Assembly: GCA_944383915.1 (NCBI GenBank)
Contig: CALWRJ010000003.1
Span: 1-48,819, forward strand
From: an uncultured Clostridia bacterium
Lineage (GTDB): Bacteria; Bacillota; Clostridia; Christensenellales; UBA1242
Reading direction: 5' to 3'
DNA: 48,819 bases
In this document: positions 39,075 to 47,505 of the stretch, one piece after another
Layout of the letters: each line of letters opens with the position of its first letter
Position numbering within the stretch: the stretch's first letter is position 1
Made by a program: the position numbers and the translations under genes
Notes under the pieces: generated by a model
What the model was told of the DNA's origin: nothing
What the model saw: only the letters and a program-made list of their open reading frames with translations
The model's database searches: none

Positions 39075-39150
39075 GGATGATTAGCTCAGTTGGTAGAGCA
39101 ACTGACTCTTAATCAGTGGGCCTAGGGTTCGAGTCCCTAATCATCCACCA
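39075..39150 (+). tRNA. tRNA-Lys (anticodon CTT)
   Basis: Cloverleaf with acceptor GGATGAT/ATCATCC, anticodon stem ACTGA/TCAGT and loop CTCTTAA, T-arm TAGGG-TTCGAGT-CCCTA, and encoded CCA. CTT reads AAG codons. Confidence 0.97.
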
Positions 39151-39492: not shown

Positions 39493-41232
39493 TCATTTAA
39501 ACCTTTGCAAGTACTTTTCTATATTAACTCTGTTCAATTTAAATCGGTAGGCATTTGGTCTTTCTTCGATAATTTCGGCGCCGAGATGGAAGCAAGTATC
39601 AAGAGATTTTTTATTATTTTTGTTAATTCCAAAGAAAAGGGCAGGGTAGTCTTTAAACTTTTGATTTGCGTTCAAAAATTTGATAACATCTAGTATTAAT
39701 CTAGTCTTTTGAACATTTTCATCTAATTCTATATCGCATAAAAATAGATTATTTTCAACACTTTCTAGCGACACAAAACCAACAATTTCGCCATTCCTAT
39801 AAATATTATATAGGGTAAAATTTTTAGAATGTAAATTATTTTTTAGACTTTCGCACCAAATTTGTTTGTCCGAGTCTTTAATTTCAAAACCAATTTTTGC
39901 CATATTACTAGCTGTTATTTCAAAAAGCCTATTCAATTCTTTTTGCAATAAAAATTTCTTTTCAACAAAGCGATTGCCTTCGATAAAGTTTTTGTAGACA
40001 AGATTTCCAAATTCGCAAAACCACTCGTGAGGTTTTTCGTAGTCTTTTGTCATTAGATAAAATTTAGCAGGGCAGTATCTACAAAGTGGCTTTAGGGAAC
40101 AGTCCTTGCATTTTGCGTTTACATCATATTCTTTTGTCTTAATTTTTTGCAATTCAAGGATAATTTGCGCCAAATTTCCCTTATTATATGGAATAGAACA
40201 CTGTTGCATACATATGCACATACTAACATTTAAATTGCAATCAACAAAAATGGAGTCATCGTCTTTTTTGCATTTAAAAATTAAATTGCTGGTGTCTTTA
40301 TTTTGAAATTTATCTAAAAAGTGCGCCTCGATGTTTTTCTGCGCTTTAAGATATTCAATTGCTTCTTGTGGCGAAATAAGTTGTTCGTTTTTTGTACCAA
40401 TATCCGTTAAACTAGGGAAAACGAAATAGTCCGAGCGGAATTTCGCGTTTAGACTATGCGCTAGTTCCTTAATTTTGTAAAAGTACGCCTTATTTTTGTT
40501 GGTTATAACATTTTTTAAGACAACATTTATATTGCTTTTTTGCAATTCTTTAATGTTTTGAATAGTTTGCTCTAAATAATTATTATTCGTTTTGGTAAAG
40601 TTATCAAAGTTTTGCTCGTTATCACCATAAAGACTTATTTCAACAGCAAAAGGCGGACGCTCCTTTAAAAATTCTAAAATTTCACCTTTTAGGAACGAGC
40701 CGTTTGAGTTAATCGAAACGATAAAGCCAAGGTCATAAATATAGGAGTAAATCTCTTTAAAATTTGGGTGAGTGCAAACTTCGCCACCACTTAAAAGTAT
40801 TCGGTTGCAGTTTAAACTATACAATTCATCAACAAAAGCTTTTATTTGCTCAACCGATAAAAAATGCGATTGCCTTTTTTCGACATAACAGTGTTCGCAT
40901 CTAAAATTACAGTTGTTGGTTATTTCAAGTATGCAAGACTTGATAAATAAAGTGCCATCATTTGTTTTATAGTCATTTACGCTTTCAATAAATCGCCCGT
41001 TTAATAGGTTGTATACTAGGGAATTTAGAACCTTTAAATTCTCCGTACGCCCTTCGTGAAATTCGTTTTCAAGTCGGTTAATTACGGCGGTGTCGCCATT
41101 TTTTATTAACTCGTTAAAAAGTTCTACCGCAAGCCCGCTTAATTTTGTTTCATAGTTTAAACGCGGGTTTTTTAAAAGAAGTAGATTTTCTAATGCAATA
41201 CTTTCTACATTTTCGCTTAACTTATATTTCAT
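39493..41232 (-). CDS. RiPP maturase: RRE-like, radical SAM, SPASM and GNAT-like domains fused
   Basis: 579 aa. Residues 1-85 resemble a PqqD-like leader-binding domain (RRE). The radical SAM core has C108-x3-C112-x2-C115 for the [4Fe-4S] cluster and a GGE motif at 149-151. A SPASM segment carries C332, C339, C341 and C345, then CKDCSLKPLCRYC (C375, C378, C384, C387) and C406 for auxiliary clusters. Residues ~440-575 look like a GNAT acetyltransferase fold (IYRNGEIVGFVSLE, GINKNNKKSLDTC). AAAAGGAA precedes the start. It lies 43 nt behind a 30-aa precursor on the same strand. It should bind the leader, form a radical-based crosslink on the core and possibly acylate it; the chemistry is inferred. 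Confidence 0.88.
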   Translation of the reverse strand: MKYKLSENVESIALENLLLLKNPRLNYETKLSGLAVELFNELIKNGDTAVINRLENEFHEGRTENLKVLNSLVYNLLNGRFIESVNDYKTNDGTLFIKSCILEITNNCNFRCEHCYVEKRQSHFLSVEQIKAFVDELYSLNCNRILLSGGEVCTHPNFKEIYSYIYDLGFIVSINSNGSFLKGEILEFLKERPPFAVEISLYGDNEQNFDNFTKTNNNYLEQTIQNIKELQKSNINVVLKNVITNKNKAYFYKIKELAHSLNAKFRSDYFVFPSLTDIGTKNEQLISPQEAIEYLKAQKNIEAHFLDKFQNKDTSNLIFKCKKDDDSIFVDCNLNVSMCICMQQCSIPYNKGNLAQIILELQKIKTKEYDVNAKCKDCSLKPLCRYCPAKFYLMTKDYEKPHEWFCEFGNLVYKNFIEGNRFVEKKFLLQKELNRLFEITASNMAKIGFEIKDSDKQIWCESLKNNLHSKNFTLYNIYRNGEIVGFVSLESVENNLFLCDIELDENVQKTRLILDVIKFLNANQKFKDYPALFFGINKNNKKSLDTCFHLGAEIIEERPNAYRFKLNRVNIEKYLQRFK

Positions 41233-41245
41233 AACAAATTCCTTT

Positions 41246-41274
41246 TAAAAAAATAAAAGTGGATAAACCACTTT
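41246..41274 (-). terminator. Attenuator-like terminator between RiPP precursor and maturase
   Basis: On the minus strand AAAGTGG-TTTAT-CCACTTT starts just after the precursor stop and is followed by TATTTTTTT. The maturase ribosome site comes right after it. Partial termination here would make precursor mRNA exceed maturase mRNA. Confidence 0.8.
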
Positions 41275-41275
41275 A

Positions 41276-41368
41276 TTAGCAATCGTAATTACCGCCGCCA
41301 ACATTCCAGCAACCATCTGAAAATGTTTCTGTAGCAGATACATTAGACACAATTTCCAAAGTTACCAT
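41276..41368 (-). CDS. RiPP precursor peptide (30 aa)
   Basis: Start ATG 41368 with a perfect AAGGAGGG 7 nt upstream (41376-41383) and a consensus promoter. The peptide begins MVTLEIVSNVSATETF, leader-like with acidic and hydrophobic residues. It ends in a core CWNVGGGNYDC, with C20 and the C-terminal residue C30, aromatic W21 and Y28, and a GGG turn. No Lys or Arg is present. It lies directly upstream of the RRE-radical SAM-SPASM protein, the standard order for radical SAM RiPPs. It fits no precursor family I know. It is too short for usual gene callers. Confidence 0.85.
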   Translation of the reverse strand: MVTLEIVSNVSATETFSDGCWNVGGGNYDC

Positions 41369-41397
41369 AACTGGACCCTCCTTATAATATTTGTTAA

Positions 41398-41426
41398 AAT
41401 ATAACATAATATATGAATGTTGTCAA
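41398..41426 (-). promoter_or_regulatory. Promoter of the RiPP cassette
   Basis: Minus strand: perfect TTGACA (41426-41421), 17-nt spacer, TATATT (41403-41398) preceded by TGT. Confidence 0.85.
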
Positions 41427-42863: not shown

Positions 42864-44963
42864 ATGACTGCAACAAATAAAATACTTAAAATTTTACTAC
42901 CATTAATTATACTAGTTTTTTCCTCACTTATTTTTACTGGGTGCGGTTCTATTGCTACGCCTATTTTAACACTAAACGGCTATACTGTGTCGTGGGGAGT
43001 AGTCGATGGCGCGGAAGGCTACGAAGTAAATCTCAACAATAGAGTTTTTCAAACTAATGATACAAGCATAAATATTATACAAGATCTCCAACAGGAAGGA
43101 ATTGTTGTTGTTAGCGTGCGCGCTTTAACTAATAGTTTTTTCTCCTCATCGTCAAATTATTCAACACCGATTACTGCAAGTGTCGGTTCATCTAGACTTA
43201 ACGCCCCTCAAAACCTTTCAATAGATATTTCAAATAATATCTACACGCTTTCTTGGGATAGTGTCGCAAACGCGGAAATGTATTGCGTAAAACTCGTTCG
43301 CGACAATACAGAAACAACTTATCATTATGCTTCAACAACAACTTTAAATCTAAATAGCGTGCTATCAGGTGGTGGCGAGTATACAGCAAGCGTTTTTGCG
43401 TATTCTAGGGATTTAAATAATTACGGTCCTTCACTATATTCTAATTTAGTCGAATTTGCTTACAGTACCTTACTTGAAACTCCGCAAAATACCGAAGCAA
43501 GCATAAGTGGAAATACGGTTCACTATTCGTGGGACGCTGTCGAAGGCGCGCGTGGGTACAATGTTAGTATCCTAAATGGCGAAACCTCTTTTACGACTGC
43601 TACTTCAATTTCATTAGACCTTAACTTATCAGCAGGGGAAACTGCATTCTTATCTGTTCAAGCAGTAAGCAACGACTTGACTTACCGTCAAAACTCCGCT
43701 TTCTCTGATATGTCCGCTGTATATACGACTGCATCTAAAAGCAGTTATGTAGGCAAAATGTACAATCTAGGCACAACGCAGTTTGACTTGGTCGCAGATA
43801 GTTATGCCGAACTAGAAGCCATTGTCCACTTTGGGCTATATTATAGGATAAATAATATCTGCTTCTTTGATAACTATTCAACTTATTCCGACCGTGACCC
43901 AATAAATGCGTTGGGGTCATATGTAGAAATAAAATATGTAACTTACAATCAATACATTTCGCGTAATAGTATGGGAATGCGAGAGTTGACTATTGCTGAC
44001 TATCAACACACAAACCACCCAACAAAAGTGGCGGCAGGTGATACAGAAGTTCGCCAAAATACCGCTGTTACTCCAACTTCGTATACTGACACCCCACGCG
44101 CAAGCGACTTTGACGACTTTAAAATTAATGACCGCACAACTACAATGATGGTGTATAACTCTGACCAACTTTACTACGCGGTGCAAAATGGCGCGCGCCC
44201 AACTTTCCCAAACACTACCGCGCCAGCATATACCGCTTATAATGCTGCGAAAGATGTTTTGCGTGAAATTGTCGATGACTCAATGACCGATTATGAAAAA
44301 ACTTTGGCAATTTTCGATTGGCTATGCTATACTGTAAAATATGATTATAACCTTGTAGATTTAACATCAACTAACAATGCCACAATTTACGACTACCGCG
44401 GTTTTTATATAGAAGGCGTTTTATTTGATAACGGTCAGGCAGTTTGTGACGGTATCGCTAAAACTTTTGCGCTTATGTGTAATATAGAAGGAATTGATTG
44501 CTACAAAGTCACAGGTATGGCAAGCGGGGGCGGGCATGCTTGGGATAAAGTGCGCCTTGATTTAGACAATGACGGAACAGGCGAATGGTATGCTGTAGAC
44601 CCAACATGGAATGACCACACTCAAATTTATCCAAATGGAACTTATGAGGAAACACTCTCGCACAACTACTTTTTGTCTACCGATGATTATCTTGAATCAA
44701 ACGACCACACCGAAACATCACCCCTAACCGATGTTGCAAACACTTCCTTTGATTACTATCGATACACCCTTTACGATGGCACACATTCTCTATATGTTGC
44801 AAATATGCCAGAATTAGAAAGTATCCTTTTGTACTTTGAAAATAACGCAGATTTAAGCCACATAGAGTTTAAAACCTATCTGCCAAGCAGTATCGTTATA
44901 AATTATATTGATTCATTAAATTATGAATGCGTTTATTTGGACAATATCTATATTGTGTACTAG
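42864..44963 (+). CDS. Lipoprotein with FN3-like repeats and a transglutaminase-like domain
   Basis: 699 aa from ATG 42864 (a TTG at 42852 is in frame). The N-terminus is a lipoprotein signal peptide ending LIFTGC, so it should be anchored to the outer face of the membrane. Three FN3-like domains follow (about residues 35-115, 115-205 and 205-295; LSWDSVANAEMYCVKL is typical). The transglutaminase/protease-like core has Cys in GQAVCDGIAKTF (C531), His in GGHAWDKV (H558) and Asp in VDPTWND (D579), a complete triad. It could crosslink or cleave envelope proteins or peptides. Confidence 0.9.
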   Translation: MTATNKILKILLPLIILVFSSLIFTGCGSIATPILTLNGYTVSWGVVDGAEGYEVNLNNRVFQTNDTSINIIQDLQQEGIVVVSVRALTNSFFSSSSNYSTPITASVGSSRLNAPQNLSIDISNNIYTLSWDSVANAEMYCVKLVRDNTETTYHYASTTTLNLNSVLSGGGEYTASVFAYSRDLNNYGPSLYSNLVEFAYSTLLETPQNTEASISGNTVHYSWDAVEGARGYNVSILNGETSFTTATSISLDLNLSAGETAFLSVQAVSNDLTYRQNSAFSDMSAVYTTASKSSYVGKMYNLGTTQFDLVADSYAELEAIVHFGLYYRINNICFFDNYSTYSDRDPINALGSYVEIKYVTYNQYISRNSMGMRELTIADYQHTNHPTKVAAGDTEVRQNTAVTPTSYTDTPRASDFDDFKINDRTTTMMVYNSDQLYYAVQNGARPTFPNTTAPAYTAYNAAKDVLREIVDDSMTDYEKTLAIFDWLCYTVKYDYNLVDLTSTNNATIYDYRGFYIEGVLFDNGQAVCDGIAKTFALMCNIEGIDCYKVTGMASGGGHAWDKVRLDLDNDGTGEWYAVDPTWNDHTQIYPNGTYEETLSHNYFLSTDDYLESNDHTETSPLTDVANTSFDYYRYTLYDGTHSLYVANMPELESILLYFENNADLSHIEFKTYLPSSIVINYIDSLNYECVYLDNIYIVY

Positions 44964-45331: not shown

Positions 45332-45382
45332 ATGTTAAAATTGCAAATTTCCCCTTCCCAAAATTCGATGGGGGGGGGGGGG
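45318..45382 (+). promoter_or_regulatory. G13 tract and two mutually exclusive hairpins (putative phase-variation switch)
   Basis: The ribosome site AAGGGGAA (45318-45325) is the exact reverse complement of TTCCCCTT (45349-45356). The same C-rich strand, CCCCTTCCC (45351-45359), can instead pair with the G tract (13 G, 45370-45382). Only one pairing can form at a time: the first hides the ribosome site, the second frees it. A change in G number shifts both the balance and the reading frame. Confidence 0.6.
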
Positions 45383-45463
45383 CGCTTAAATAGCCCAAAA
45401 ATACTTGTTTTACCGCATTTTAAAGACTTTTTTAAAGCACAAAAAGGCGGTGAAATATGGTAA
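45332..45463 (+). CDS. Leader ORF (43 aa) carrying the G13 tract, overlapping the surface protein start
   Basis: It runs from ATG 45332, preceded by AAAAGGGGAA, to TAA 45461-45463. It begins MLKLQISPSQNS, has MGGGG from the G tract, and ends AQKGGEIW. The last codons overlap the start of the surface protein gene (ATG 45457, different frame). By hand translation, one G more gives a stop at TAG and one G less at TAA, each within four codons of the tract, so only this length (or ±3) keeps it open to the downstream start. Translation is plausible but unproven. Confidence 0.45.
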   Translation: MLKLQISPSQNSMGGGGRLNSPKILVLPHFKDFFKAQKGGEIW

Positions 45464-47505
45464 CCATTAAAGCGAAAATAATATCAATAACTATATCAAT
45501 AATTCTCCTTTTATCCGCGCTCGCCGGCGGAATTACTGCAATCGTATTAAATGAGATAAATAAGAGTAACGCCTATCGAGGTACAGAAAGTAGTGTTTCC
45601 ATTGGTAATTTACTTACAGACGATGGAACAAGCATGAATGTCGACACATTCAATACGCTTATGATGCACCTTGATGCAATAGGAAGCGTATCAAGTGTGC
45701 AAAATTCGAACGATATCAATGGCGGTAACCCCTTAATCTTCCAAATGGGCGAAGTAAACGGCAACCCTATATACTGGCAAGTAGTCTACCGCACAAAAGA
45801 CTATATAACAGTTTGGATGACGGAGCCATATACAGCGGAATATTTCAACAATAGTGGAAGTTCAATTAACAATAGTGATTTAGCGGGGTACACTACGGGT
45901 AAATATAGCAATTACGGAAACTACTCACAATCGGTTATACGAGATGTAACGCTTGGAATATACAATGAAATGTTATCTTCATTTTCAGCATTATCAAGCT
46001 TTATAGTATCGCCACAAACAATGGCAACCAACACTGGTATAGATTGGCAGAGTACGCAGGAAAGAAAGAAAGTTTCCTCTTATTATTCCACGACAGACGG
46101 TTTAGGCAATCAAACAAATGATAATGCTAACAATCCACATGGCTGGACATATAACAGTTGTATGAGTGATATGTTTTGGATACCTAGTTACATAGAAGTG
46201 CATTATAATTCGACAGCGTACGACTCAGAAAGTTGGCCAGGGGATACTGGCGGTCGTGGTTTATGGGCATTACCGAATGAAGAAAAAGGATTTGACAATA
46301 GTAGCACAGCGCTTGATGGCACTAGCGGAGTAAGTTCATATTGCTGGCTGCGCTCCGGCAACTCCACCTCTTACAGCTATGCGATGCTAGTTGACCCGTC
46401 GGGCACCGCTGGCAGCCTCATTGTGAGCAGTAGCCGCGGCGTCCGTCCTGCCGCTCACATCTCGTTATCGGCTTTAAAAAATCTCGTCAAATATAATGTA
46501 ACAACCGCAGTAACTCCCGCAGGTTCGGGCACTGCAAGCGCAAATTATAGCAGTGTAGCCCTTGGTACAAGTGTAACATTTACAGCCACCGAAACAAATT
46601 CTAGTTACCGCTTTGTAGGTTGGGACACTAATGGAGATGGGCAAGCAGACAATACCGCAAATCCCTTGAGAGTTACAATAAATGCAGACACCATATACAC
46701 TGCAATATTTGAATTGCGCACATACTCGGTAACCACCAGTACGGACGGAAACGGAAGTATCACCGCAAGTACTACCGTTACTCACGGTGGAAGTTATGAG
46801 GTAACCGCCACTCCTGTAAACGAAACTTATGAATTTGACTATTTTATATTAAACGGAAATACTGGTAACCATATACGGTCTAACCCGTATACGATTGCAA
46901 ATATAATAGCAAATACAACAATAACTGCATATTTCAAACTAAAACCATACAATGTATCAATAACCACAAACGATAGTAGTATCGGCAATGTGTTATATAA
47001 CAATAGTTTAACAAATACCTCAAATACAAGCATAAGCACAAATCAAACACACGGCTCTAATTTAACAAACATTTACGCAATAGCCAGTGGTGGAAATGCC
47101 TTTGCATACTGGCAAATTGACAGGGGCGGGGGAAATGTAACCACAAGCACAGCAAACCCACTAACGCTTCAAAACATCACCGCAGACACAACGGTTACTG
47201 CATATTTTTCTAGTAATGTACTTGATACCGTTGGGGTAGTGGCGACATATGGCGGAAGTGTTGAGATATTAGGGGAGAACTTCGATAGCCTTTTGCCTAG
47301 TGACGAAATAACGCTCGTTTCTCGAGTAAAGATAGACGGTTATCGATTTGTTGGCTGGTATGACGGCGAAACTTTACTAGGCACATCGGCAAGTATTAAA
47401 CTACAATATTCACAAATACAAGGCAAACTTATTACAGCCCGCTTTGAACCAATAAATACAAATGCAAATGGACAAACAGACACAGGTAATAGTGGAGTAC
47501 TTTAA
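45457..47505 (+). CDS. Secreted surface protein: DUF6273/C-type-lectin-like domain plus InlB-like repeats
   Basis: 682 aa. A signal peptide or membrane anchor lies at residues 5-35. Residues ~80-335 form a DUF6273-like domain: IYWQVVYRTKDYITVWM, FWIPSYIEV, then YCWLRSG (295-301) and GVRPAAHISL (328-337). Four InlB B-repeat-like units follow (about 345-420, 421-495, 496-585 and 590-670; YRFVGWDTNGDG, YRFVGWYDGE). No LPXTG is present. Codons for residues 296-333 are GC-rich, unlike the rest of the gene. Upstream lies the G13 leader ORF. GGCGGTG precedes ATG 45457. Probably a cell-surface binding protein. Confidence 0.85.
   Translation: MVTIKAKIISITISIILLLSALAGGITAIVLNEINKSNAYRGTESSVSIGNLLTDDGTSMNVDTFNTLMMHLDAIGSVSSVQNSNDINGGNPLIFQMGEVNGNPIYWQVVYRTKDYITVWMTEPYTAEYFNNSGSSINNSDLAGYTTGKYSNYGNYSQSVIRDVTLGIYNEMLSSFSALSSFIVSPQTMATNTGIDWQSTQERKKVSSYYSTTDGLGNQTNDNANNPHGWTYNSCMSDMFWIPSYIEVHYNSTAYDSESWPGDTGGRGLWALPNEEKGFDNSSTALDGTSGVSSYCWLRSGNSTSYSYAMLVDPSGTAGSLIVSSSRGVRPAAHISLSALKNLVKYNVTTAVTPAGSGTASANYSSVALGTSVTFTATETNSSYRFVGWDTNGDGQADNTANPLRVTINADTIYTAIFELRTYSVTTSTDGNGSITASTTVTHGGSYEVTATPVNETYEFDYFILNGNTGNHIRSNPYTIANIIANTTITAYFKLKPYNVSITTNDSSIGNVLYNNSLTNTSNTSISTNQTHGSNLTNIYAIASGGNAFAYWQIDRGGGNVTTSTANPLTLQNITADTTVTAYFSSNVLDTVGVVATYGGSVEILGENFDSLLPSDEITLVSRVKIDGYRFVGWYDGETLLGTSASIKLQYSQIQGKLITARFEPINTNANGQTDTGNSGVL
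46342..46455 (+). other. GC-rich patch in the lectin-like domain, candidate DGR variable region
   Basis: By hand count 46341-46460 is about 63% G+C, whereas the gene around it is below 40%. It covers codons from CWLRSG to GVRPA, the place where diversity-generating retroelements vary C-type-lectin-like targets. Many codons end in C (AAC, TCC, ACC, TAC, AGC, GAC, GGC), as expected if AAC-type template codons had been varied. No reverse transcriptase or template repeat is in the window. Confidence 0.5.

Follow-up and report, generated by a model that had tools for sequence, protein, structure and literature searches.

A putative minimal RiPP operon pairs a 30-residue precursor with a fused radical SAM-GNAT-like enzyme in uncultured Clostridia

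In the window, the 48,819-nucleotide stretch of DNA from an uncultured Clostridia bacterium that was analysed here, a 30-codon open reading frame (ORF) stands directly upstream of a radical SAM enzyme gene and ends in a short segment with cysteine at both ends. Does this ORF encode the substrate of the enzyme, and which bond would the enzyme make in it? Analysis of the locus and its relatives indicated that the two genes are almost certainly a RiPP precursor and its maturase. As an explanation of the whole locus, we favour a minimal RiPP operon that closes a ring between the Cys-Trp start of the core and its C-terminal Cys, to which we assign a probability of about 0.6.

The precursor gene and its relatives in Clostridia

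The precursor gene and its signals are located as follows:
41276..41368, minus strand: RiPP precursor MVTLEIVSNVSATETFSDGCWNVGGGNYDC, leader about residues 1-19, core CWNVGGGNYDC; assigned from the sequence, codon comparison and the homologs in G006, G199, G062, G161 and G181
41376..41383, minus strand: ribosome-binding site AAGGAGGG, 7 nt 5' of the precursor ATG, read from the sequence
41398..41426, minus strand: promoter-like site TTGACA-17-TATATT, 11/12 matches, 5' of the precursor
41256..41274, minus strand: 7-bp hairpin followed by a T run between precursor and maturase, probably a leaky terminator or attenuator

The precursor ORF comprises 30 codons and a stop, from the ATG at 41368 to the stop at 41276, and with its ribosome-binding and promoter-like sites it agrees with the original prediction. 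The promoter-like site (41426-41398) is the best of 15 such sites within 3 kb; since shuffled sequences contain 11.2 sites on average, only its place and score are informative, and a TTGACA/TATAAT-type site is also readable by eye upstream in five of seven other loci. First-ATG ORF calling gave a 43-aa version of the precursor, and the 30-aa start was preferred because the ribosome-binding site belongs to it. Terminator-like hairpins with a T run barely exceed the shuffled expectation in bulk (3 in 3 kb versus 2.4), but the hairpin was given weight because folding predicted a hairpin in the corresponding position of all eight loci examined, the window included, with differing sequences, MFE values of -7.4 to -14.5 and z scores of -1.3 to -6.1 against mononucleotide shuffles. 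A ribosome-binding site also precedes the maturase gene, after the hairpin and T run. A peptide gene of 30 residues is below the usual annotation size; in line with the claim that the core belongs to no known precursor family, the 43-aa form matched no NCBIfam or Pfam family at E 0.01, and three precursor relatives matched no NCBIfam family at 0.1.

The family search for the maturase covered 298 and then 310 genomes. Five full-length maturases were found among the 310 family genomes (the window, G006, G199, G062 and G161), and a CW...C precursor lies directly upstream in all five, although these maturases are related and the pairings are therefore not independent cases. The precursors of the four relatives are MEQLLIKTEIVVTETFADGCWNVGGQDYDC, MQIEIKTTKKNTFSASSGCWGVGGNDESSC, MVININNSESFDDGCWQVANGQDAC and MIINITNTESFDDGCWQVANGEDAC. 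The original prediction had placed a RiPP precursor beside a radical SAM maturase and had held that maturase homologs without a small Cys/aromatic ORF upstream would speak against this; each of the five has such an ORF, with Cys and Trp in its C-terminal part, and the proposal stands. In G181 (L010:1264-2181, the same locus as L039), an intact precursor (MVIEIKINKKLFTVSSYCWNFGRSEESSC) lies beside a 260-aa frame that keeps the start and the SPASM/GNAT end of the maturase and has no radical SAM core, which may reflect decay, an assembly error or a real reduced form. G102 holds only a C-terminal part of the maturase, and no precursor peptide was found there. The Clostridia relatives come from MAGs of uncultured Clostridia and 'uncultured Christensenella sp.'.

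Alignment of the six Clostridia precursors, proposed earlier as a check, revealed that C20, W21 and the last residue, C30, are invariant, with variable residues between them. Of the predicted core, the opening Cys-Trp and the closing Cys are thus conserved, while W-N-V and Y-D-C are not: the cores of close relatives read WQV...QDAC, WGV...ESSC and WNF...ESSC, and Y-D-C is present in only two of the six. The three-residue cyclophane that had been suggested at W-N-V or Y-D-C was rejected on this ground. Comparison of the window and G006 precursors gave 11 synonymous, 12 replacement and 7 identical codons overall, and 10, 3 and 5, respectively, over codons 13-30; the predominance of synonymous changes there indicates selection on the core and on the TETF segment. 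For this pair, dN is 0.34 and dS is saturated and not computable, while dN and dS are 0.068 and 0.53 between G062 and G161, and 0.035 and 0.28 between Citrobacter and Escherichia coli, whose loci are described below.

As a control for chance, ORFs of 20-90 aa ending in CW-x(8-13)-C were counted in 2.51 million strand-bases of non-family loci, where five occurred, two of them with a Shine-Dalgarno-like site. Because the ribosome-site filter in this control looked only at the first start codon, and so would have overlooked the ORF of the window itself, all five were counted rather than two; the expectation is then ~5e-4 per upstream stretch of 250 nt, where all five full-length maturases have such an ORF. 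Among 71 loci (L149-L219), most of them from class or phylum searches, CW...C peptides occurred only in L149 and L159, which are second copies of family loci, and in L171 and L175, where the ORFs have no ribosome site; further chance-like CW...C ORFs were found in unrelated loci. Near radical SAM genes in L165, L166 and L171, peptides of the form MKKY..P..E.V.LR.EER.A...C.GAC... were observed, likely a different precursor family.

A maturase with a C-terminal GNAT-like domain

The regions of the maturase are located as follows:
39493..41232, minus strand: maturase, 579 aa, with an RRE-like N-terminal region, radical SAM, SPASM and C-terminal GNAT-like domains
40948..41232, minus strand: N-terminal 95 aa, probable RRE (PqqD-like), from its position and the separate PqqD-like ORFs in L013 and L041
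40453..40941, minus strand: radical SAM core, residues ~98-260, CX3CX2C at 108-115; PF04055
40015..40272, minus strand: SPASM region, residues ~321-406, with invariant cysteines
39496..40005, minus strand: C-terminal GNAT-like domain, residues 410-579, from alignment with standalone copies and the separate GNAT gene in L040

At a threshold of 0.01, the only Pfam match of the window maturase is Radical_SAM (PF04055, 3e-20). In an alignment of the window enzyme with four homologs (five sequences), the cysteines of the motif C108-x3-C112-x2-C115 do not vary, and neither do SPASM-type cysteines at 321, 339/341, 375, 378, 384, 387 and 406; the Pfam SPASM model gave no match on the window maturase. 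NCBIfam returned 44 families, the best 25 of which all lie far under cut-off. Heme biosynthesis models rank first (AhbD, 1.5e-25; NirJ2, 2.4e-20), above AlbA, the best RiPP-maturase model (3.9e-19, 68.4 of a cut-off of 850 bits); the mycofactocin and SbtM models score near AlbA, SkfB reaches 57.8 of 300 bits (8e-16) and WgkB is lower at 45.8 bits. Neither curated sactisynthase cut-off, that of AlbA or that of SkfB, is reached. Because heme models outscore AlbA and the listed families all fall far below cut-off, the bond chemistry is not readable from the family. Among solved structures, only SkfB (8.8e-11) and 9dfu (0.00096) are related to the window maturase at E 0.001.

The gene had been read as an RRE/radical SAM/SPASM protein; the radical SAM and SPASM parts hold, and the RRE is unclear by sequence. 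The PqqD profile weakly matched two of six maturase N-termini (best E 0.025) and did not match that of the window, and hhalign of the maturase N-terminus against the PqqD protein of L041 gave no support (0.5%). At the position of the N-terminal 95 aa, L013 and L041 carry separate PqqD-like ORFs (7.1e-9 and 4.6e-7), which suggests that this region is probably a PqqD-like RRE. A 71-aa ORF in the PqqD position of the Citrobacter operon gave no Pfam match.

The earlier reading also missed a domain: the last 170 residues of the maturase can be aligned with proteins encoded on their own within the same bacterial family, and also with the product of a distinct GNAT gene located 3' of the maturase in L040, a Bacilli MAG. 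The L040 protein matches PF13673 at 1.6e-7, the best value among the 7 of 12 GNAT-like members matching that model, and the window C-terminus aligns with it at 7e-7 in a two-sequence BLASTP; the window domain alone reaches 0.018-0.029 against PF13673, below cut-off. These alignments make the window enzyme look like the product of a fusion between two neighbouring genes, one radical SAM and one GNAT. The acetyl-CoA motif of GNAT proteins is Q/R-x-x-G-x-G/A. Inspection of the alignment by eye found QKTRLI and similar in place of this motif, so the acetyl-CoA loop looks degenerate, and for this reason we say only that the domain may acetylate. No solved structure related to the L040 GNAT protein was found. 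Standalone GNAT-like copies of ~164-189 aa occur in related genomes (L015-L018, L228), and no radical SAM gene lies beside them in the L015-L018 stretches. In literature searched by title and abstract start, neither such a peptide was recognised nor a radical SAM-GNAT fusion found among the matches listed, and both are likely new.

Relatives beyond the family and the tRNA setting

Outside the family, the Bacilli MAG L040 has the same precursor-maturase order with the core GCWEQSYSANDGDGC, and L044 (Citrobacter sp. MGH106) has the core GCWGPSPDDGYNQC followed by the 71-aa ORF and two radical SAM genes. In L041 (Lachnospiraceae), the peptide GCWSCSANGMNFC lies 2 kb from a maturase, with an IS110 transposase between, and probably belongs with it. 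A midpoint-rooted tree of 32 radical SAM domains with FastTree supports, in which 23 'other' loci were hand-picked from those fetched and L121 and L195 were dropped for having no usable ORF, placed all 11 maturases with a GC...C-type peptide in one clade (support 0.98). This clade comprises nine CW entries, the two Citrobacter enzymes counted separately, and two GCN entries (L012, L013). Within it, the CW maturases are not monophyletic on their own: L041 clusters with the two GCN enzymes. L012 and L013 hold sister precursors of the CW family: their maturases share the clade, and the peptides share GC at the core start and a Cys at or near the end, but they differ in having Asn for Trp and a maturase without the GNAT domain. 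They end in GCNSSGSDDDSCYC and GCNSYSNDDNSCY, respectively, and because they carry GCN instead of GCW and L013 ends in SCY, neither Trp nor a Cys at the very end holds for every member of the clade. The sister precursors lie beside radical SAM genes at L012:2868-2972, L014:2865-2969 and, in L013, upstream of 2475 on the minus strand; the PqqD-like gene is separate in L013, and in the genome of L012 (G197) a GNAT-like gene stands alone on a different contig.

The Citrobacter operon was matched in 96 of 5426 complete E. coli genomes, with coverage of >=80% of the query in 95; 95 of the matches have 80-90% identity and the remaining one has 90-95%, with a value of 89.4% in the best 20 of the 96. 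In E. coli 042 (L144:4021-6417), a 48-aa precursor ending ...RKTLGCWGPSPDDGYNQC precedes two radical SAM genes, and the operon is flanked within ~4 kb by a RepL gene and a MobQ relaxase. The annotation there covers a 61-aa gene and both radical SAM genes but omits the precursor; because none of 13 E. coli records (042 and 12 of the 96) has a gene annotated at the precursor, the peptide family has gone unseen in this well-studied species. Plasmids gave no match to the E. coli precursor and, for the Citrobacter and Bacilli enzymes, only matches below 60% identity, and no CW...C peptide was found in the plasmid loci L145, L146 and L147. Three scans of viral contigs found no relative, and 19 phage records had weak maturase matches, none covering 80%. 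Other peptides were seen in these searches: one 38-aa peptide (MSYSKPTVLAKSSTYMAQCRPNSKPSGRPCNPPGPSGR) occurs unchanged on a Photobacterium plasmid and an E. coli plasmid (L146:3414-3530 and L147:2413-2529), in both cases next to radical SAM genes and recombinases, and is probably another mobile RiPP, and a record named 'Bacteriophage sp.' (L148:2435-5662) combines a radical SAM gene and an ABC transporter with a Cys-rich peptide (IGCWGCLGCASCGIG...) in an arrangement reminiscent of subtilosin.

The maturase gene of the window faces a tRNA gene:
39075..39150, plus strand: tRNA-Lys (CTT), its 3' end directed towards that of the maturase gene at a distance of 342 bp; possible integration site

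A tRNA scan of ten sources (the window/L035-L042 set and L044) revealed that the operon 3' end faces a tRNA 3' end at 342 bp in the window, 198 bp in L036, 33 bp in L037 and 195 bp in L039, the four tRNAs being different; four of the six Clostridia copies thus lie <350 bp from a tRNA 3' end. No tRNA was found in L035, L038, L040, L041, L042 or L044. In L036 (606-3100), a 45-bp exact direct repeat of the 3' half of tRNA-Met stands on the far side of the operon, and the repeats bracket a 2.4-kb segment with precursor and maturase, a possible non-autonomous integrative cassette in which no integrase was recognised. L037 has a weak 20-nt repeat (shuffle p ~0.05), and neither the window nor L039 has a tRNA 3'-end repeat across the operon. 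Among nine genus mates, five have a pgi match, with tRNA-Lys adjoining in four of the five; beyond the tRNA lie a tyrosine integrase in G006 (PF00589, 1.1e-15) and other ORFs in G003 and G004, and the G005 stretch ends soon after the tRNA. The next window gene beyond the precursor was not found in these pgi/tRNA-Lys stretches by tblastn. G+C content contrasts weakly, at 0.28-0.34 for the operon against 0.34-0.41 past the precursor and 0.30-0.37 towards pgi. Because four of six copies lie near tRNA 3' ends and one lies between 45-bp repeats, the pair is probably mobile; with clear repeats only in L036, this reading draws on one clear case and on position. Elsewhere in the window, a run of 13 G (45370-45382) lies inside a short ORF directly 5' of an InlB-type-repeat gene (45457-47505) and may be a phase-variable tract, and 42864-44963 encodes a predicted lipoprotein with a transglutaminase-like core (PF01841, 2.5e-12).

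The proposed ring and its alternatives

In the proposed mechanism, the strong promoter would drive the 30-aa precursor and the leaky hairpin would pass little transcription on to the maturase, so that substrate would be abundant and enzyme scarce. The precursor's N-terminal half, with a short hydrophobic strand and a Phe before the core, would dock on the RRE-like domain, and the radical SAM/SPASM part would link the invariant CW end of the core to its C-terminal end in a ring of about ten residues. The ring is placed between the core ends because the conserved residues flank a variable loop. For the GNAT-like domain, acylation of the product is one possible role, serving tailoring or self-protection, and simple peptide binding is another; the pair would move as a small cassette to tRNA 3' ends. 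The observations behind this scheme are the conserved ORF, its place beside the maturase gene, the fused domains and the neighbouring tRNAs. Profile search recognised no protease, exporter or immunity gene beside the pair in the window, and neighbours of the relatives were examined as nearby ORFs only; any export and the biological role of the product are presumed here. The G181 locus counts against this explanation, since it keeps its precursor although the frame beside it lacks a radical SAM core.

For the bond itself, we lean towards a thioether made by radical chemistry and involving either or both of the invariant cysteines; a Cys left over may coordinate a SPASM cluster while the reaction proceeds or enter a disulfide afterwards. 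Donor Cys residues in known sactipeptides mostly stand before their acceptors, and since nothing follows the terminal Cys, sactipeptide-type use of C30 is disfavoured. A thioether is favoured because both cysteines are kept, AlbA is the best-scoring RiPP-maturase model and SPASM binding by a peptidyl Cys is known from CteB (PMC8172795). The same source describes the sporulation killing factor (SKF) as combining Cys, thioether and disulfide. Like the sactipeptide maturases AlbA (subtilosin) and SkfB (SKF), the latter its best solved relative, the window enzyme has a radical SAM core, SPASM-type cysteines and, probably, an N-terminal recognition region. It differs from those systems in its AlbA score of 68 of 850, the GNAT fusion and the lack of a recognised adjoining protease or exporter, and its putative substrate differs in the 11-residue core with terminal Cys and in matching no family at the thresholds applied.

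It is unlikely that the maturase instead makes a C-C bond on Trp, for example to the residue two positions on, yielding a triceptide-like cyclophane while the two Cys form a disulfide. The invariant Trp of the six Clostridia precursors would suit such a bond, and the model of WgkB, which makes a Trp-Lys C-C link, matches the window maturase at the 45.8 bits given above, with DynA at 42 bits on the L041 enzyme and AmcB at 33 bits on the second Citrobacter enzyme. On the window maturase, however, AlbA scores 68 bits against 46 for WgkB among the best 25 of the 44 families. In the excerpted text of PMC11002830, from which our definitions of sactipeptides, ranthipeptides and triceptides are taken, the SPASM radical SAM enzymes XncB, OscB and MscB make triceptides on aromatic-x-x motifs, including Trp-x-x; the acceptors named there are Asn, Asp, Arg, Ser and Ala, and the motifs described lack two conserved Cys. 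Here the residue two positions after Trp is V in five of the Clostridia precursors and F in the sixth, and Q, P and C in L040, L044 and L041, so that the motif with a known third residue is not found, and Y-D-C varies as noted.

A ranthipeptide-type bond from a Cys sulfur to the C-beta or C-gamma of an acidic residue (Asp/Glu) near the C-terminus is equally doubtful. As in the PapB/freyrasin and CteB/thermocellin systems, a radical SAM/SPASM enzyme is paired with a core holding Cys and acidic residues: Asp or Glu lies between the first and last Cys in eight of nine CW cores, the PapB model matches both Citrobacter enzymes at ~36 bits, and PapB accepts Cys-Xn-Asp with n of 0-6 (PMC9413430, abstract). 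The acidic residue has no fixed place, however, and is missing from L041, eight residues separate the first Cys from Asp in the window core, and PapB is not among the best 25 of the 44 families for the window maturase. The Cys-x3-Asp motif of the PapB kind was rejected separately, its spacing being absent from the window core and the acidic position varying; none of the nine cores has a Cys-x3-Asp/Glu spacing.

Less likely than either is a more far-reaching version in which the C-terminal Cys is joined to Trp (at the indole or at the alpha or beta carbon), the macrocycle is acylated by the fused GNAT domain and the operon is a tRNA-targeted cassette with relatives from Clostridia to E. coli; such a Cys-Trp staple is not among the radical SAM bonds described in the passages of PMC11002830 and PMC8172795 consulted. 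That the ORF is real but not the substrate, for instance a small regulatory or toxin peptide preceding the maturase, would fit the intact precursor beside the reduced frame in G181, but is very improbable given the co-occurrence in all five full-length cases and a precursor type that tracks the maturase clade from Clostridia to Enterobacteriaceae. A chance ORF, for which only its 30 codons and the lack of a database family at the cut-offs used could be argued, is practically dismissed by the upstream homologs, the invariant C/W/C, dN/dS, the pattern control and the clade support.

The proposed ring-closing operon offers a compact, testable RiPP system with a substrate of 25-30 aa and one fused enzyme, and the separate GNAT gene of the Bacilli relative explains the radical SAM-GNAT fusion. 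The same maturase clade reaches Citrobacter and the 96 E. coli genomes. A minimal, apparently mobile peptide-modifying cassette of this kind would help to explain the spread of such RiPPs.
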